The notes below the pieces were generated by a model. It was not told where the DNA came from. It was given only the letters and a program-made list of their open reading frames with translations, and did no database searches. A stretch of 64,000 bases of DNA, from positions 221,551 to 285,550 of the forward strand of contig CALDSR010000013.1 in NCBI GenBank assembly GCA_937924505.1, written 5' to 3'. Position 1 is the first letter of the stretch, and every line of letters begins with the position of its first letter. This document shows, piece by piece, positions 23,393 through 30,756 of this stretch. Source of the stretch: an uncultured Granulosicoccus sp. (GTDB taxonomy: Bacteria > Pseudomonadota > Gammaproteobacteria > Granulosicoccales > Granulosicoccaceae). The position numbers and the translations under genes are program-made.

Positions 23393-24268
23393 TTAAGTAC
23401 CTGGAATATAACGCTGCAGGTACAGCGTCAAGCAAAATGCCAGTAAAGCCACCACGACCCATAAAATGGAACCTGTGGCTGCGATCAACATGGCATCAAC
23501 GATCGATATTCCGGCGATCATGCTGACTACCGCACGTGGAATGTCTCCCGGATGACGGCGCAACACAAATCGCAAAGAGTAGATCAGCCAAAAGATAAAG
23601 ATCAACACTGTAAGCCACGCTACAAGACTTCCAGTGTGGGTGGCAGCAGTATAAATCAACGGTATAGCCAGAAACGCTAGCGGCCACATGTTTTTGACCT
23701 CTCCCAGGTTCTCCTGCTTGGCGGTGTAAGTCAGTCCGATCAGATAGCACAACAATGCCACCGCACCAACATACAAAACACTTGATGGTTCGTTTGTTAA
23801 CGTCCAGCCTGCGGTGATATAGACCAACATTCGGCACAGCCCCATGACGAAAGGACTCAATGGATTATTCTTGTGCCAGGCGTTGTACAGAACAACAGCA
23901 ACTGCCAACGATATAGCGGCGCCAAATGCAGGCCAACCGCCGCCACCGGTAGTCATCGCACACCAAGCGATCAGCAGCATGGCAGAGCCCAACATGGCAA
24001 ACCCTGAACAATAGACACTCCGGGCACTTACCATTCCTGACGGTATAGGACGTTCAGGGCGCTCGATTGCATCGATATCCTTGTCAAACGCATCATTGAG
24101 GAACATGCCTCCGGTATAGACAAGTGTCATGGCAAGCAGCAGAGCCAGTATTCGCCAATCATCTAGTGATGCGCCAGCTAACACGACACCTGCTATCGTA
24201 TTACTCCATACCGTTGGTAGGTTGGACACACGGCCAAGGCGCAAAAAAATAGCGGTGTTCCAGCTCAC
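23393..24268 (-). CDS. eboC: EboC, UbiA-family prenyltransferase
   Basis: 291 residues using the GTG at 24268, whose GTGA overlaps the eboE stop by 4 nt. An ATG at 24289 is possible and would add seven residues with a 25-nt overlap. The protein has about eight hydrophobic helices and the UbiA aspartate motif in LNDAFDKDIDAIERPERPIPSG (NDxxDxxxD), which binds prenyl diphosphate through magnesium. The start FLRLGRVSNLPTVWSNTIAG is typical of EboC. The second Asp-rich motif is weak (LTYTAKQENLGEV region). It would attach an isoprenoid chain to an acceptor in the inner membrane. Adjacent eboE, eboF and the nearby eboA/B/D identify the cluster. Confidence 0.87.
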   Translation of the reverse strand: MSWNTAIFLRLGRVSNLPTVWSNTIAGVVLAGASLDDWRILALLLAMTLVYTGGMFLNDAFDKDIDAIERPERPIPSGMVSARSVYCSGFAMLGSAMLLIAWCAMTTGGGGWPAFGAAISLAVAVVLYNAWHKNNPLSPFVMGLCRMLVYITAGWTLTNEPSSVLYVGAVALLCYLIGLTYTAKQENLGEVKNMWPLAFLAIPLIYTAATHTGSLVAWLTVLIFIFWLIYSLRFVLRRHPGDIPRAVVSMIAGISIVDAMLIAATGSILWVVVALLAFCLTLYLQRYIPGT

Positions 24269-25542
24269 GTGAGTATGTCGCGGACCCATTGCAATTCACG
24301 CACAATCGCCGCATCCATACTTTGCGTTCGGTATTGCTCCGGCAATACATTCCAGGTGTATGTTTCAACCTCGAGATGATTGCTTATCGGGTCGATTTTT
24401 TGTTTCTCCAAGGCCTCCCGCACGAAAAACTGCGTGGAAGAAAATTCCCCCAGGTCATCAAGAAAAACAGGCACATGAAAATGCACACGCCATTCGCGCG
24501 CTGCATTGTCATCTTTCAGTGCAGCGAAGGCATCAGCAAGATCCGTATACCGATTCAATACCCCATTGTGCTGCTCGACCACCTGGTGCAGGTACACGTT
24601 GTCTTCGAAGGGTCGCAGGATTTCGATAGTATCTCGTGTAACATTTTCAAGACGAAGCCCGGCACTGATCTGCACTTTTCCGATGCCAATACCCGCAGCG
24701 CGCAGGTCGGCAACACAAGCATCATAAGACTCGAACTCGACAGCTGCATGACACAAGTCCAGACACAAAGTCAGATGCTTGCGTAGCAATGTTTCCGCGT
24801 CACCCTGATCCAGCCCAAGCAAGCTTGCCAGTTGTGCCTGTGATTCCGAGCTGAACAGATGATCACTGAAAAAATTAACCGACTCCTCGATCGTTTCCAG
24901 AAAACAACAGGGTTCCGGTTCCAATGCCAACACAATGCATTTTCCCACACGCTGTTCAAGCTTAACCAGATGAGCAATGTGCTGAACCATCTTGCGCGCC
25001 ATGGAGCAAATATCATCCTCACCGCTGACGCGAGCCTTGAACGCGCCGGGCACTGTGCTGATACTGCCGGTTTGACCTGCTGGCAGAAACTCGGCGAACA
25101 CATCAGCAACCTGATTGGTGTAGCGCAGGCGTTCATCGTCTTGCCAATCTGGCAAATACACATCCTCCTTGACTCGTGCGCCATGAAACGGGCCGTAGGG
25201 AAAGGCATTGATCGTGAACACATAAAGCTTGTTGTCAGCCAGGAAAGTTTTGAACTCAGCCAACGCAGCAGGTGCTGCAAGATCATTAACAGCATCGGCT
25301 GACAGCCGCAGACCAATACCGAATTTGTCGTCAGGACTCAGGGCCTGACGGATTTGTGGCATGAAGCGCGCAAGATTGCCGCGAACCTCAGCCCAGGATT
25401 CACCCGGATGTATGTTCGAGCAATAGCTGAGGTGGCTTATTGCACCATTGGCAAGTGAGACTTTCACCGATTCTGTCCAGGTAGTGACAAGGAAATCAGA
25501 ACAACAGCAGCCGCCAGCTGCCGCATCTGATCTTGATGCCAT
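24265..25542 (-). CDS. eboE: EboE, metabolite traffic protein (xylose isomerase-like TIM barrel)
   Basis: 425 residues. The EboE signature ISHLSYCSNIHPGESWAEV starts near residue 35, followed by YVFTINAFPYGPFHG, VYLPDWQDDERLRYTNQVA, LALEPEPCCFLET, LCLDLCHAAVEFE and the C-terminal EVETYTWNVLPEQYR. Conserved Glu, Asp and His residues on successive strands match a metal-binding AP-endonuclease-2/xylose-isomerase barrel. In cyanobacterial scytonemin producers Ebo proteins are needed to move a metabolite to the periplasm. The biochemical reaction is not known. The first 30 residues include an unusual GGCCCSD cluster and may be non-native if a later start is used. It is divergent from eboF over a 52-bp gap and overlaps eboC. 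Confidence 0.87.
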   Translation of the reverse strand: MASRSDAAAGGCCCSDFLVTTWTESVKVSLANGAISHLSYCSNIHPGESWAEVRGNLARFMPQIRQALSPDDKFGIGLRLSADAVNDLAAPAALAEFKTFLADNKLYVFTINAFPYGPFHGARVKEDVYLPDWQDDERLRYTNQVADVFAEFLPAGQTGSISTVPGAFKARVSGEDDICSMARKMVQHIAHLVKLEQRVGKCIVLALEPEPCCFLETIEESVNFFSDHLFSSESQAQLASLLGLDQGDAETLLRKHLTLCLDLCHAAVEFESYDACVADLRAAGIGIGKVQISAGLRLENVTRDTIEILRPFEDNVYLHQVVEQHNGVLNRYTDLADAFAALKDDNAAREWRVHFHVPVFLDDLGEFSSTQFFVREALEKQKIDPISNHLEVETYTWNVLPEQYRTQSMDAAIVRELQWVRDILT

Positions 25543-25594
25543 TAGTTAAACACGAATTGTGTTGCCATGAAACCACTGTGCTCAGTATCATCGA

Positions 25595-26980
25595 ATGATG
25601 AAACAGACATTGGTAATTCTGGTGGTCGGCTTAAGCCCGGCTCTGGTTGGCGAACACACGCCGCATCTGCAAAAACTTAGCCGCCGTGGTGGTATCCGCC
25701 CACTGAAAGCCGTAACCCCAGCGGTCACATGTTCAGCCCAGTCAACTTTGTTGACCGGCCTGATGCCTTCTGAGCACGGCATAGTCGCCAATGGCTGGTA
25801 CTTTCGAGATTTATCTGAAGTTTGGCTATGGCGTCAATCGAACCGCCTTGTCGCGGGCGAGAAAATTTGGGAAGCAGGCAAGGCGCGTGATGCGACGTTC
25901 ACTTGCGCCAAAATGTTCTGGTGGTACAACATGTACTCGACCGCCGACTGGAGCGCTACGCCCAGGCCCATGTACCCCGCAGACGGACGAAAAATTCCCG
26001 ACCACTATAGCTATCCCGCTGGATTGCACGACGAACTCGATGAAAAATTCGGGCAGTTCCCCCTGTTCAAATTCTGGGGCCCCATGGCGGATATCACCTC
26101 CAGTCGCTGGATCAGTGACGCCACACGGCATGTCATGGACACCCGTAACCCAACCCTGACGCTAACTTATCTGCCACATCTTGACTACAACCTGCAACGC
26201 CTGGGTCCTGATCTGGAACATCCGAAAATCCAGAGCGATCTGCGCGAGGTGGATGAACTATGCGGTGAATTGATTGATGCCGCCAACAAGCAAAAGCAAA
26301 ACATCATTATCGTATCCGAGTACGGAATCACACAAGTGAGCGATGCCATACACATTAATCGTGCACTGCGAGAGGCCGGGCTCATTCAAGTTCGTAATGA
26401 GCAAGGCCGGGAACAATTTGATGCAGGGGCTTCTGATGCCTTCGCGGTAGCTGATCATCAAATCGCACATGTGTACGTCAACAACCTCGAGAAGCTCGCG
26501 CAAACACGAGCTCTACTCGAAAAGCTTGATGGCGTTGAGCATGTGCTAGACGATGCAGGCAAGAAGTCCTGGGGATTGGATCATGAGAGATCCGGTGAAC
26601 TGGTGGCTATAGCCAAAGCAGACCGCTGGTTCAGCTACTACTATTGGTTGAATGATAAGCGTGCGCCCGATTACGCGCGTACCGTTGATATCCATCGCAA
26701 ACCAGGTTACGACCCGGTTGAGCTCTTTATTGACCCCGAAATCAAGCACCCGATGCTGGCCGTTGGCTCACGGCTGGCGCGGAGAAAACTCGGCTTGCGT
26801 AATTTGCTTGATGTCATTTCCCTGAAAGACACCAAACAAGTTAAAGGCTCGCACGGTCGCCCAACCGATGATCCAGATCACGGACCCTTGGTGATCAGTT
26901 CCGAAGCCGGCTTGTTGCCGGATGGAGAAATTGAATCCACCGCATTCAAGGAGTTGGTGCTACGGCACGTGTTCGAGTAA
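25595..26980 (+). CDS. eboF: EboF-like, alkaline phosphatase/nucleotide pyrophosphatase superfamily
   Basis: 461 residues, no signal peptide. Family landmarks are VILVVGLSPALVGEHTPHL, the nucleophile region AVTPAVTCSAQSTLLTG with Thr in VTC, SEHGIVANGWYFRD, EVWLWRQSN, KMFWWYNMYSTADWS, YLPHLDYNLQRLGPD, IIVSEYGIT and FAVADHQIAHVYV; the late GSHGRPTDDPDHGP gives further His/Asp ligands. It is predicted to cleave a phosphodiester or pyrophosphate. The N-terminal metal Asp usual in the superfamily (iDGl) is replaced, reading VVGLSP. Plus strand, divergent from eboE and convergent with idi, so transcribed separately from the other ebo genes here. Confidence 0.85.
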   Translation: MMKQTLVILVVGLSPALVGEHTPHLQKLSRRGGIRPLKAVTPAVTCSAQSTLLTGLMPSEHGIVANGWYFRDLSEVWLWRQSNRLVAGEKIWEAGKARDATFTCAKMFWWYNMYSTADWSATPRPMYPADGRKIPDHYSYPAGLHDELDEKFGQFPLFKFWGPMADITSSRWISDATRHVMDTRNPTLTLTYLPHLDYNLQRLGPDLEHPKIQSDLREVDELCGELIDAANKQKQNIIIVSEYGITQVSDAIHINRALREAGLIQVRNEQGREQFDAGASDAFAVADHQIAHVYVNNLEKLAQTRALLEKLDGVEHVLDDAGKKSWGLDHERSGELVAIAKADRWFSYYYWLNDKRAPDYARTVDIHRKPGYDPVELFIDPEIKHPMLAVGSRLARRKLGLRNLLDVISLKDTKQVKGSHGRPTDDPDHGPLVISSEAGLLPDGEIESTAFKELVLRHVFE

Positions 26981-27014
26981 ATACTCAATCAGATTACAAA
27001 AAAATTCTCATGAG

Positions 27015-27587
27015 TCATTGGTAGATAAGCGCATCAAACATCGATCGATGTTTGGCCATGTATATCTTGAACCAGACTGAAAACAGCTCTGGTTGACTGG
27101 ATATTTTTTCCAGTATTTCAGGAATGGTCAACCATTGGGTAGCGGAGACCTCATCAGGATTAAATTCCGCTGGTAATACAGCTGCTTCAAGGTTGCCGTA
27201 AAAGCAATGTACATGTTCGTTTTCGTACAGTGTGCCAACGCGTGCAGCGTAGTCGATACGACCAAATTCTCTCAGGGGCACTTCCCAGCCCAACTCTTCT
27301 TGCAAGCGTCTACCAGCACATATCTGTGCATCCTCATTCCAGCGCGGGTGGGAGCAGACAGTGTTAGCCCACAGGCCACCCGAATGGTATTTTGTGTCAG
27401 CACGTTTTTGAAGTAATAAACGCTGGCCATGGAATACGAAAATGGAAATTGCCACATGCGGTACATTGCGCACGTGGGCATCAAGTTTTTCTATGGGATA
27501 ACGCTCGCGAGATTTATCGTCACCGATGCCAGTGATCAGCTCCCGCAAGTTGTTATCTATGACAGCCGTACTCGTACGAGTCCTCAT
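27015..27587 (-). CDS. idi: Isopentenyl-diphosphate delta-isomerase, type I
   Basis: 190 residues. A Nudix-fold IDI with the catalytic Cys in LWANTVCSHPRWNEDA, the Glu-containing active-site motif in YENEHVHCFYG, RRLQEELGWEVP in the Nudix helix position, LLLQKRADTKYHSGG and the C-terminal PELFSVWFKIYM. It interconverts isopentenyl and dimethylallyl diphosphate in the cytoplasm. It starts 7 nt after eboB and is thus the last gene of the eboD-eboA-eboB-idi unit. Bacteria using only the MEP pathway do not strictly need this enzyme, so its place inside an ebo operon suggests that it tunes prenyl diphosphate supply for EboC; this link is inference. Confidence 0.93.
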   Translation of the reverse strand: MRTRTSTAVIDNNLRELITGIGDDKSRERYPIEKLDAHVRNVPHVAISIFVFHGQRLLLQKRADTKYHSGGLWANTVCSHPRWNEDAQICAGRRLQEELGWEVPLREFGRIDYAARVGTLYENEHVHCFYGNLEAAVLPAEFNPDEVSATQWLTIPEILEKISSQPELFSVWFKIYMAKHRSMFDALIYQ

Positions 27588-27594
27588 TCCGTCA

Positions 27595-28521
27595 TTACTC
27601 GATGATCAGATTGTTTACATTACGTTTGTTGGCTGGCTCTTCCACCAATGGCTCACGACCGCCACGTAAGATAGAATTACCCTCATATACATTTCGCTGG
27701 TCGACAGCAGGCGGATCCAGCCAGTCGTTCTCGTGCATCTGACCACTCTGCCCATAGGCGTCAAGAGCATTCTGATAGCAGACCAACCTGACATGCTCTT
27801 CGGGAATACCCCGTTGCAATGCAAGCGCTGCTGTTTTTGCGACACCTAGTGGTTCAGAAATTCCCCAGTCACAGGCGGAATCGACCATTATTTTCTGCGC
27901 ACCATATTCAGCCAGAATATCCACCATCCGTTCATTACCCATCTTGGTTGATGGATAGATGGAGAATGCGGCCCAATAGCCACGATCGAGCACTTCTCGC
28001 ACCGTTTCTTCATTGTTGTGATCGACAATGATTTTCCCTGGATCCATACCGTGTTCTTCGCACACATCCATTGATCGGCTTGTGCCACGTTTCTTGTCTC
28101 GATGCGGTGTATGAATCATGACGGGTAAATCGAGCTCTTTCGCCAGTTCCAACTGTTGCCGAAAATAACGATCCTCCAATTCCGTTTGTTCGTCGTAGCC
28201 AATTTCGCCAATCGCGACAACCCCCTCCTTGAGTGCAAATCGCGGCAGAATTTCCATAACGGCCTCTGCCAATTCTTCATTGTTTGCCTCCTTTGAATTG
28301 AGGCCGATTGTGCAATAGTGTCGAATGCCGAATTGACCGGCTCGGAACCGCTCAAACCCCAGAATCGCTGATAAATAATCGGTATAGGTAGCCACATGCG
28401 TGCGGGGTTGACCGATCCAGAAGGCCGGTTCTATCACCGCCACTACACCTGACTTGGCCATGGCCTCGTAGTCGTCGGTTGTGCGCGAAATCATGTGCGC
28501 ATGAGGATCAATAAACATCAT
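27595..28521 (-). CDS. eboB: EboB, TatD-like metal-dependent hydrolase
   Basis: 308 residues, TIM-barrel amidohydrolase of the TatD type. Metal ligands: IDPHAHM (HxH), AIGEIGYDEQT (Glu), MIHTPHRDK (His), IVDHNNEETV (His) and KIMVDSACDWG (Asp). The set is complete, so an active two-metal hydrolase is expected. The tail after NALDAYGQSGQM (DWLDPPAVDQRNVYEGNSIL) is characteristic of the Ebo branch rather than TatD itself. Its start codon overlaps the eboA stop by 4 nt (ATGA), so it is translationally coupled to eboA. The reaction is unknown. Confidence 0.88.
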   Translation of the reverse strand: MMFIDPHAHMISRTTDDYEAMAKSGVVAVIEPAFWIGQPRTHVATYTDYLSAILGFERFRAGQFGIRHYCTIGLNSKEANNEELAEAVMEILPRFALKEGVVAIGEIGYDEQTELEDRYFRQQLELAKELDLPVMIHTPHRDKKRGTSRSMDVCEEHGMDPGKIIVDHNNEETVREVLDRGYWAAFSIYPSTKMGNERMVDILAEYGAQKIMVDSACDWGISEPLGVAKTAALALQRGIPEEHVRLVCYQNALDAYGQSGQMHENDWLDPPAVDQRNVYEGNSILRGGREPLVEEPANKRNVNNLIIE

Positions 28522-29435
28522 GTGGTTTCTCCATTCGTTCGGGTTCTGTCTGCAGAACCGCCGACGGAATCACCGAGCATGTCCCACGTCAGCTCACCCT
28601 TTGCGATGGCAGCTGATTCATCTGGAAAACGACTGAGTAAGTCAGACGCTATGGGATCGGAACATTGTGACAAGGCCAGCAGCGCCGCCAGACGCTCAAT
28701 CTCGCTAGAAGATTCGGTAACACGGCGTAAATCGTCAATCATCTCCGTTGTAGCGAACGGTCCCACACACCGCCAGAGTTCTGGTGTAACCGCCCGATTA
28801 GCCGCCCAGCGCTCATGCGCGTAGTCACAGAGTATGCGGGCCAGTTCTGCATTGGCACGTTCGTCCAAGCCTTGAATAGGCGCCAGAGTACTGTCGATGA
28901 ACAGCGCCTTCAAAACCATATGATTCCAACGGTTTTGATCAAAATGGTCACGCGGATACGAATTGTGGTGGGCAATAGCTTCAAACACTGCTCGTATATT
29001 GGTGCGCAAGCCTTCACCTATCTGAGCATCCAATTCGGCACTGTGCGGGTAAAACGCGATACCGCGATAGAACGTTATCGATTCATTCAAATCAGCAGTT
29101 CGACACAGATCTTTGAACAGGCAAGCAAATGCTTTCTCATCTTGCTCGGCAACTATGTTTAACATGAGAATGCGTGCAGCGGTTTCAACCGTCCATTCCC
29201 GAGTGTCCCAAACGCGATTGCTGTCACGACGTGCAGCGTCTATTTCGGCTTCAGATAAATTCAAATCAGCTCGACCGAGCTTACGCGGAACCAAACCCAG
29301 CGATATATGCAGATCGCGAACAGCGCCAGATTCTCGGAGCAGGGTCAGACGTGATTGCAACCACCGCCAATTGTCATTGGACAGGCGAGCTTGCAGCCAA
29401 AGTTCCAGAATTTTTGTTACGTTTTGAGACATCAC
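28518..29435 (-). CDS. eboA: EboA
   Basis: 305 residues, no signal peptide, mostly alpha-helical. It matches EboA domain proteins by its helical start (ILELWLQARLSNDNWRWL), ISLGLVPRKLGRADL, the segment WTVETAARILML, and the RGIAFYPHSAELDAQIGEGLRTN region with the conserved YP, followed by VFEAIAHHNSYPRDHFD, WNHMVLKALFI and LARILCDYAHERWAA. The repeated short helices look HEAT-like. No enzymatic motif is seen, and the function of EboA is not established in any organism. It lies 61 bp after eboD and overlaps eboB by 4 nt. Confidence 0.85.
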   Translation of the reverse strand: MMSQNVTKILELWLQARLSNDNWRWLQSRLTLLRESGAVRDLHISLGLVPRKLGRADLNLSEAEIDAARRDSNRVWDTREWTVETAARILMLNIVAEQDEKAFACLFKDLCRTADLNESITFYRGIAFYPHSAELDAQIGEGLRTNIRAVFEAIAHHNSYPRDHFDQNRWNHMVLKALFIDSTLAPIQGLDERANAELARILCDYAHERWAANRAVTPELWRCVGPFATTEMIDDLRRVTESSSEIERLAALLALSQCSDPIASDLLSRFPDESAAIAKGELTWDMLGDSVGGSADRTRTNGETT

Positions 29436-29496
29436 GCTCTGTCAAAAAATGACTGAATTACCAACAATAAGCCCGCCAGCATAGCGCGGATGGGCG

Positions 29497-30702
29497 TCAG
29501 GATCTATTACGCCGTTTCATCCATTCAATCGCTTGCCGGACATGGGACTCTTCCATGGCATGCACTTCAACCCCTTGCCCAAGACCTGCAAGCAGGGTAA
29601 TGGTCATTTCGCCACCGAGATGTTCGCGAAAATCACTGAGACCCTGCAACACTTCGAATCGGGCATGTGTGTTTTTGCTCTCCAGACTCGGATGCCAAAG
29701 CTTAAAACCGAGATGCTCGAGCAAAAAGCAGATACGCTCATCTGCCCCTGGCTCGAGAAGGCCACAAAGTACTGAATAACGTGCATCCAGTGCAATACCA
29801 ATCGCCACGGCTTCACCGTGCCGAAGGTGATAACGCGTGATGGTCTCCAAGCGATGCGCCGCCCAGTGGCCAAAGTCCAGCGGACGGGCGCTGCCCGTCT
29901 CGAAGGGATCTCCACCCTGCCCAATCTGTCGCATGTGCAACTCCGCACACCGCTTGATCATGTAGCTCATTGCAGAGCGCTCGAACAGAGCCAGTTCATC
30001 AGCATGATGCTCAAGCCAGGCATAGAAATCAGCGTCTCGGATCAAGGCGACCTTGACCGCTTCCGCCATGCCTGCAATTTTGTCTCGCTCAGGCAAGCAT
30101 TCAATAAAATCGTAATCATTGAGCACAGCGAAAGGTGGCGCGAATGTACCTACATAATTCTTTTGCCCAAAGAGGTTCACGCTATTCTTGACCCCTACGC
30201 CAGAGTCGTTTTGCGATAGCACCGTCGTCGGTATTCGCACATGCCGAATACCTCGATGCGAGGTTGCAGCCACCAGCCCAACCGCATCGAGCAATGCGCC
30301 ACCACCAATACCCACAACATAGGAGTGGCGATCGATATGTTCGTCTGACAGAGCCTTTTGCATTTGCTCGATGAAATGCAGATCGGATTTTATTTGTTCA
30401 CCAGATGGCATGCATATCGGTGGCACAACCAGCTCGATTTGTCGCGAATAGGCTTGTGCATACTGATCAATGGCATCGAGCAAACCCGGCATGGCTTTGA
30501 CAACCCCATCATCCACGAAAACTATCATGCGATGGCGCTTGTCAGCCTCCAGATGGCAAAGCGTATCGCGCAGTACCGGATTGTCGGATTTGAACAGGCC
30601 ATTGGTAAAACAAACCGGAAAAGCGTAGCTGACTGTAAATTGCTGCCAACTGGTTTCGGTTTCGACGTGGGCGGGATCCTGAATCGGGTCCATTGAAATC
30701 AT
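29497..30702 (-). CDS. eboD: EboD, dehydroquinate synthase-like sugar phosphate cyclase
   Basis: 401 residues. NAD-binding VVGIGGGALLDAVGLVA, substrate and metal loop RIPTTVLSQNDSGVGVKNSVN, VLNDYDFIECLPERDKIAGMAE, and the zinc ligands in RPLDFGHWAAHRLE and LRHGEAVAIGIALD match the 3-dehydroquinate synthase/sugar phosphate cyclase superfamily. The asparagine-rich VKNSVN loop and long N-terminal extension (about 40 residues before the fold) set it apart from housekeeping AroB and match EboD. It would cyclise a sugar phosphate, but the product is unknown. Alternative start at the second ATG three codons in. First gene of the eboD-A-B-idi unit, with an inverted repeat 27 bp upstream. Confidence 0.88.
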   Translation of the reverse strand: MISMDPIQDPAHVETETSWQQFTVSYAFPVCFTNGLFKSDNPVLRDTLCHLEADKRHRMIVFVDDGVVKAMPGLLDAIDQYAQAYSRQIELVVPPICMPSGEQIKSDLHFIEQMQKALSDEHIDRHSYVVGIGGGALLDAVGLVAATSHRGIRHVRIPTTVLSQNDSGVGVKNSVNLFGQKNYVGTFAPPFAVLNDYDFIECLPERDKIAGMAEAVKVALIRDADFYAWLEHHADELALFERSAMSYMIKRCAELHMRQIGQGGDPFETGSARPLDFGHWAAHRLETITRYHLRHGEAVAIGIALDARYSVLCGLLEPGADERICFLLEHLGFKLWHPSLESKNTHARFEVLQGLSDFREHLGGEMTITLLAGLGQGVEVHAMEESHVRQAIEWMKRRNRS

Positions 30703-30728
30703 TGCAGTTTTAGGTTCGAATCGCTCAT

Positions 30729-30756
30729 CGCTGACTTATATTTGTTTAAGTCAGCG
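30729..30756. promoter_or_regulatory. Perfect 10-bp inverted repeat upstream of eboD
   Basis: CGCTGACTTA (30729-30738) and TAAGTCAGCG (30747-30756) are perfect reverse complements separated by 8 nt. The dyad ends 27 bp before the eboD start codon. It could be a repressor operator or a hairpin in the 5' leader; there is no U-tract, so a terminator is unlikely. Confidence 0.6.

Follow-up and report, generated by a model that had tools for sequence, protein, structure and literature searches.

The locus described here lies in a 64,000-nt stretch of contig CALDSR010000013.1 from an uncultured Granulosicoccus sp. (hereafter the window). The ebo cluster is genuine and complete and belongs to a Granulosicoccaceae bacterium: all six genes eboA–F and a type I isopentenyl-diphosphate isomerase gene (idi) are located together at 23393–30702. 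The earlier note had recognised the six genes in the sequence, and reading frames and hidden Markov model (HMM) searches bore this out. The isomerase is probably dedicated to the ebo pathway, and we give a probability of about 60% to the reading that it converts isopentenyl diphosphate (IPP) to dimethylallyl diphosphate (DMAPP) for an EboC-dependent prenylation of a cyclitol-derived product. Two unrelated isomerases, acting on the same two prenyl diphosphates, recur at ebo clusters, which is fresh, independent evidence that the ebo pathway consumes isoprenoid.

This recurrence was observed directly. Species genomes were scanned with an EboE alignment, and the best 80 of 134 relatives make up the sample referred to below as the 80 nearest loci. 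An isomerase gene was found in 27 of them, belonging to type I in 21 cases and to the unrelated type II in six (L021, L022, L024, L025, L054 and L062). Idi is therefore neither peculiar to this cluster nor absent from all related ones, and its occurrence is wider than the earlier note assumed. In 51 of the 80 fetched stretches all six ebo genes were present, 19 of these together with type I and five with type II. The type II model TIGR02151 was matched over its cut-off in L024 and L062 and in the genomes of L021 and L025 (G016 and G019), while the call in L022 and L054 rests on tblastn. In 41 of 45 rows, three of which repeat a cluster, the isomerase gene and its nearest ebo neighbour shared a strand; the median gap between match ends was 40 nt. 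It adjoins eboB in most Granulosicoccaceae and eboF, eboA or eboB in alphaproteobacteria; in Burkholderiales the type II gene is upstream of a GSDH-type sugar dehydrogenase gene, a cytochrome c gene and eboF.

In the cluster studied here, idi follows eboB after 7 nt, a spacing noted earlier and confirmed by the coordinates. The encoded NUDIX protein is predicted to be isomerase-like by its active site and not by a curated model, since it scored 100.5 bits against NF002995 (cut-off 127) and 89.9 bits against TIGR02150 (cut-off 105.8). Other type I copies of the family mostly reached about 84–100 bits and were likewise under the cut-off, so that the low scores point to a divergent branch instead of a broken copy. 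Among the matches listed, all 12 solved structures are IPP isomerases, the best being 1r67 (E = 8.6e-15). The active site is complete. An alignment of 47 different type I copies, comprising 44 taken from fetched loci, that of this cluster and two from annotated photosynthesis plasmids, shows H38, H44, C78, H80, Y113, E122, E124 and W172 in every copy; we take these to be the residues expected of a type I Idi (the catalytic Cys and Glu, the His and Glu metal ligands, and a Tyr and a Trp). Tyr113 was assigned from the family alignment and a reading of the loop, the other residues via the solved isomerases.

Because the two isomerase families are unrelated, ebo clusters must have recruited such genes at least twice. 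In a maximum-likelihood tree of the 47 type I copies, the label "at ebo" needs five changes, at least three of them forced by well-supported branches, and the copies from alphaproteobacteria group apart from those of Granulosicoccaceae. An alphaproteobacterial type II protein encoded at ebo is 73% identical to the non-ebo type II protein of the same genome, compared with about 36% to the Burkholderiales ebo copy, suggesting separate arrivals. A single event may account for the closely related L054 and L062, and another for the four alphaproteobacterial type II loci, and transfer of whole clusters followed by replacement may have played a part.

The association also appears at the level of whole genomes. 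Of the 80 source genomes, 46, picked mostly for their longer stretches, were searched, and type I idi was counted at matches of at least 75 bits. It was present in 28 genomes and located with ebo genes in 25 of these, a count that includes the positions of L081, L084, L086 and L087; three genomes carry it away from ebo (G008, G009 and G022). Type II was over the cut-off in four of the 46 genomes, each with an ebo-located copy, and one (G018) has a second copy elsewhere. In a draw of 40 Granulosicoccaceae genomes, 32 had EboE over the cut-off, including three (G054, G058 and G062) with a paralogue only. Type I idi occurred in 28 of the 40: with ebo genes in 21 (G059 and G066 being counted solely because a partial EboE lies less than 2 kb from idi), only beside carotenoid- or photosynthesis-like genes in six, and elsewhere in one (G052). 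Six of the seven non-ebo type I copies of this family adjoin carotenoid- or photosynthesis-like genes, contexts that were judged by eye from protein starts. Such clusters likewise place type I idi with an isoprenoid-consuming pathway; here, in contrast, the neighbours are ebo genes, and tblastn detected no polyprenyl synthase in the window. As a side observation, six genomes of the Granulosicoccaceae draw (G005, G012, G054, G058, G062 and G069) contained an EboE-like gene in which the match to the profile is interrupted beyond position ~302; no other ebo gene was nearby in the four loci fetched (L155–L158).

In an even draw of 385 alphaproteobacterial genomes, 11 had EboE and 28 had type I idi over the cut-off; a smaller draw gave EboE in four of 190, all within the 11. 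With the centre genome left out and type II not counted in the genomes lacking ebo, type I idi was found in 5 of 10 ebo genomes versus 22 of 374 without ebo (Fisher p = 2.3e-4, ignoring kinship). Three further ebo genomes among the 10 have type II at ebo. Altogether, seven of the 10 carry type I or type II at ebo (G016, G018, G019, G037, G203, G259 and G750), one has an isomerase elsewhere (G669), and none was seen in G159 and G719.

From these observations we infer that Idi serves EboC, and in what order the pathway would run and what kind of product it would yield. EboD would cyclise a sugar phosphate to a cyclitol, which EboE, EboB and possibly EboF would then modify, before EboC attaches a prenyl group in the membrane; the DMAPP formed by Idi would either be donated directly or prime the synthesis of a longer donor. 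Of the searched genomes in which an isomerase gene accompanies ebo, 29 of 30 have IspH of the methylerythritol phosphate (MEP) pathway (the miss being G004), so that DMAPP can be formed without Idi and a cluster-borne Idi fits an extra demand. Such a demand is the simplest reason for keeping the gene in the cluster, and its repeated uptake suggests that the ebo product contains a terpene part. Two Streptomyces ebo-like clusters (L167 and L168) encode an inositol-3-phosphate synthase, an SCO3242-type prenyltransferase and an extra sugar isomerase, and EboD was neither annotated nor detected in either; the inositol-3-phosphate synthase without EboD points again to a cyclitol. Ebo is found across several phyla and in some algal plastids, and the idi-bearing clusters should offer a handle on the ebo product and on the length of the prenyl donor.

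Several observations weigh against this reading. The first concerns EboC itself. Its first Asp-rich motif is intact (NDAFDKDID, residues 65–73) and the pattern NDxxDxxxD is kept in 73 of 73 distinct EboC sequences, but the second motif DxxxD, which we take to be expected of UbiA prenyltransferases, occurs in the second-motif region of none of the 73. Instead, this region shows a conserved T-x-x-A-K/R-x-E (T187 in 73, A190 in 70, K or R191 in 71 and E193 in 72 of 73). Assignment to the UbiA superfamily depends on the PF01040 match, and the donor may be bound differently from the usual. Moreover, 53 of the 80 nearest loci lack an isomerase in the fetched stretch, some of these stretches being truncated; at L005, L007, L015 and L066 the gene lies immediately beyond the stretch or on a different contig that carries ebo genes. 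An even gammaproteobacterial draw gave EboE in 15 of 369 genomes, and with the centre left out idi was with ebo genes in only one of 14 (G054 of this draw). Its cluster, L122, has eboD, eboA, idi, eboF and eboC, with eboE and eboB undetected by tblastn at E < 0.1. Elsewhere in the genome, idi was found in G052, G354 and G434 (the last below the cut-off), and 10 of the 14 had no type I match of at least 75 bits; several of these ebo stretches are short contigs. Idi was also absent within about 10 kb from all 12 plasmid-borne ebo clusters considered (Rhodobacterales, Azospirillum, Mycetohabitans, Deinococcus, Bacteroidota, Gemmatimonadota and Streptomyces). Genomes with ebo and without an isomerase imply that ebo can work without one. 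Together, recurrence and absences mark idi as a repeated accessory that does not belong to the ebo core and is found chiefly in Granulosicoccaceae and in part of the alphaproteobacteria. Finally, the label changes in the type I tree may reflect one gain and two losses instead of repeated gains, and two published systems, in Phycorickettsia and Nostoc, speak in the same direction.

EboC may take a long polyprenyl diphosphate (C40 or C55) that is already in the cell, Idi merely helping the overall supply of chains, and we regard this as possible, though at clearly less than even odds. Octaprenyl (C40) or undecaprenyl (C55) diphosphate was proposed as the EboC donor for Phycorickettsia, a bacterium described as dependent on outside supplies of IPP and farnesyl diphosphate (Yurchenko 2018, PMC6092422). 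Both points speak against DMAPP as a universal donor. In addition, in vitro farnesylation of 8-hydroxyquinoline-2-carboxylic acid was shown for EboC homologues from three other bacteria, which thus accept a C15 donor (Amiri Moghaddam 2022, PMC9235831). Of the earlier suggestion that idi hints at a C5-derived donor for EboC, the isoprenoid chemistry is strengthened by the two unrelated isomerases, while the C5 donor stays conjectural beside this farnesylation and the long donors proposed. Also in favour of a long donor, L070 has a polyprenyl synthetase gene (L070:6801-7829; PF00348, 268 bits) directly downstream of eboC. However, this is the only one of the 80 nearest loci with a polyprenyl synthase by tblastn, as against 27 with an isomerase. 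In the carotenoid- or photosynthesis-like contexts of idi, tblastn with the L083 and L125 proteins as queries found the synthase in L083, L125, L127, L128 and L129.

We judge it unlikely that the ebo system helps to bring small molecules across to the periplasm, whether through a prenyl-cyclitol lipid carrier that it synthesises or without forming any metabolite of its own. In favour of such a role, Nostoc ebo mutants accumulate the scytonemin monomer, which was read as a transport defect and led to the proposal of a lipid carrier (Klicki 2018, PMC6282210). A gene family of which one member was confirmed by Pfam as a GSDH-type sugar dehydrogenase, often with a small cytochrome c gene, also fits: 32 of the 80 nearest loci (including L002, L004, L021, L024, L031 and L058) have it no more than 3 kb from an ebo gene. 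Within the window, tblastn gave no match to this family. Transporter-like families recur as well, an ABC ATPase family at 14 of the 80 loci and others at four to six; they were named by eye and their ebo membership is putative. A lipid carrier would need prenylation too, however, and differs from prenylation of a cyclitol-derived product fed by Idi mainly in the role of the product.

That Idi is a passenger, serving the general isoprenoid supply (quinones, carotenoids) and present at ebo by descent from a few old insertions, seems rather improbable to us. Nearly all searched genomes with idi have one type I copy of at least 75 bits (G069 has two), so that a single Idi must serve all cellular needs, and the MEP pathway is present regardless. 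Furthermore, 23 of the 45 rows share one place, adjoining eboB, so that many rows amount to one event, and the type I tree allows the single gain with two losses mentioned above. Against this stand the varied places of the isomerase gene (next to eboB, eboF or eboA), the two unrelated enzyme families and the type II identities.

A dedicated Idi also admits a narrower version, which we consider quite improbable: EboC would use DMAPP itself to form a small compound, derived from a cyclitol and bearing a C5 prenyl group, that serves in redox reactions or as a carrier and acts at the membrane with the GSDH-type dehydrogenase and cytochrome c. Direct use of DMAPP would leave an excess of IPP, which would explain why two isomerase families and not chain-elongating synthases were recruited; the odds are lowered by Phycorickettsia, an ebo bearer said to import IPP and farnesyl diphosphate. 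Least of all do we expect the NUDIX gene to encode a hydrolase of prenyl or nucleotide diphosphates, which its scores under both curated cut-offs would permit, given the eight retained isomerase residues, the 12 isomerase structures and the type II Idi in other ebo clusters.

An isoprenoid-cyclitol product was already proposed in 2016 for the ebo operon of Bacteroidetes, cyanobacteria and eustigmatophyte plastids, which comprises the same six genes eboA–F (Yurchenko 2016, PMC5133447). A prenylated cyclitol-like product, as put forward in the earlier note, is thus not new. The gene order of those operons differs from that found here, and inserted genes are mentioned but left unanalysed in the excerpted passages; neither "isopentenyl" nor "idi" occurs in the main text. 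In Nostoc punctiforme, eboA, eboB, eboC, eboE and eboF are alike by family, but eboD lies outside the cluster proper, unlike here, and "isopentenyl" does not occur in the main text (PMC6282210). The Phycorickettsia operon also has six ebo genes with a UbiA-type EboC, in the order ABCDEF, unlike the cluster here. It was described in the only paper found to combine ebo and isopentenyl, and its excerpted passages do not mention an isomerase (PMC6092422). The UbiA-297/EboC prenyltransferases belong to the same EboC family within the UbiA superfamily; farnesylation was shown for those enzymes, whereas the EboC described here is known from its sequence (PMC9235831). A nematode-related effect in Pseudomonas, which had been taken as a clue to the Ebo product, is weakened as such, since a review states that in E. 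coli the EDB cluster led to tryptophan-derived indole compounds (PMC9655573). We found no published report linking an isomerase to ebo in the literature searched, which omits most subscription papers; within it, the prenylated-cyclitol idea is already published and the isomerase link at ebo is apparently new.

The identities of the genes were established directly (Table 1). EboE scored 460.7 bits against NF035939 (cut-off 250), the EboA domain 160.3 against NF035938 (cut-off 50), EboD 573.3 against NF004852/PRK06203 (cut-off 333), EboF 224 against PF01663 (cut-off 23), EboB 67.9 against PF01026 (cut-off 27) and EboC 68.9 against PF01040 (cut-off 34.2). EboA remained under the cut-off of the longer model NF035937 (218.9 bits, cut-off 320). 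The best NCBIfam match of EboC was prenyl_rel_EboC (NF035940), at 132.3 bits under its cut-off of 250; the name EboC follows from this best match and from the place in the cluster.

Table 1. Genes of the ebo cluster, with positions in the window.
Gene	Position	Strand	Description and basis
eboC	23393-24289	-	UbiA-superfamily membrane prenyltransferase; PF01040, best NCBIfam model EboC (below cut-off), motif counts
eboE	24265-25542	-	Xylose-isomerase-like TIM-barrel protein (fold per literature); NF035939 over cut-off
eboF	25595-26980	+	Alkaline-phosphatase-superfamily protein with changed metal site; PF01663, alignment to Xac NPP, AlphaFold2/Foldseek
idi	27015-27587	-	Type I isopentenyl-diphosphate isomerase; solved-structure matches, complete active site, models below cut-offs
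eboB	27595-28521	-	TatD-like metallo-hydrolase, metal ligands intact; PF01026
eboA	28518-29435	-	All-helical, solenoid-like protein; NF035938 over cut-off, AlphaFold2 model
eboD	29497-30702	-	Sugar phosphate cyclase (AroB-like), not a standard 3-dehydroquinate synthase; NF004852 over cut-off

On the minus strand, eboD and eboA are separated by 61 nt, eboA and eboB overlap by 4 nt, and eboE and eboC by 25 nt. The closest EboE homologues carrying an organism name come from Granulosicoccus. A 400-residue homologue is 100% identical over 94% of the 425 residues of EboE, which suggests that the ATG of this reading frame is too early and that the true start is probably downstream, near 25467.

The split arrangement, with the plus-strand eboF between the minus-strand groups D-A-B and E-C, had been called unusual and is not: of the 80 nearest loci, 13 are Granulosicoccaceae clusters in which eboD, A, B, F and E are present, and all 13 share it (L011, L014 and the eleven with idi). 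Among ten further such clusters it was kept in L133 and L134 and differed in L135, L142–L145, L147, L148 and L150; in L142–L145 eboF is likewise inverted, but lies between D-E-C and A-B. Hence, this layout is frequent in near relatives and not universal.

Some Ebo proteins depart from their superfamilies at functional positions. In EboD, compared with four 3-dehydroquinate synthases, Phe267 and Asp276 replace the Lys and Asn that we take to be substrate-site residues of these enzymes, in 87 of 87 distinct sequences, so that EboD as a standard 3-dehydroquinate synthase was discarded. The metal site of EboB (H7, H9, E106, H137, H168 and D218) is kept in 72 of 72 distinct sequences. The fold of the EboF AlphaFold2 model matches phosphonoacetate hydrolase and NPP in Foldseek. 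At positions aligning with what is presumably the two-zinc ligand set of Xac NPP, Asp is changed to Val10 in 90 of 96 distinct EboF sequences, and His to Gln201 and Asp-His to Glu242-Tyr243 in all 96; Thr45 and Asp197 are kept, and D287, H288, H330, H367 and H420 are invariant in the 96. These ligand changes make a plain two-zinc phosphatase role doubtful, and the usual phosphatase annotation of EboF may be wrong. The EboA model is all-helical (predicted local distance difference test score, pLDDT, 93.9), and Foldseek returned ARM/HEAT-like rows with no significant match.

Two further gene families recur around the sampled ebo clusters. A small TMEM220-family gene is divergent to eboD in many Granulosicoccaceae clusters (e.g., L002:1555-1923), with no tblastn match within the window, and a flavoprotein gene follows eboB in L020, L021, L022, L024, L025, L026 and L032. 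The flavoprotein of L024 matched the flavocytochrome c model below its cut-off and FAD_binding_2.

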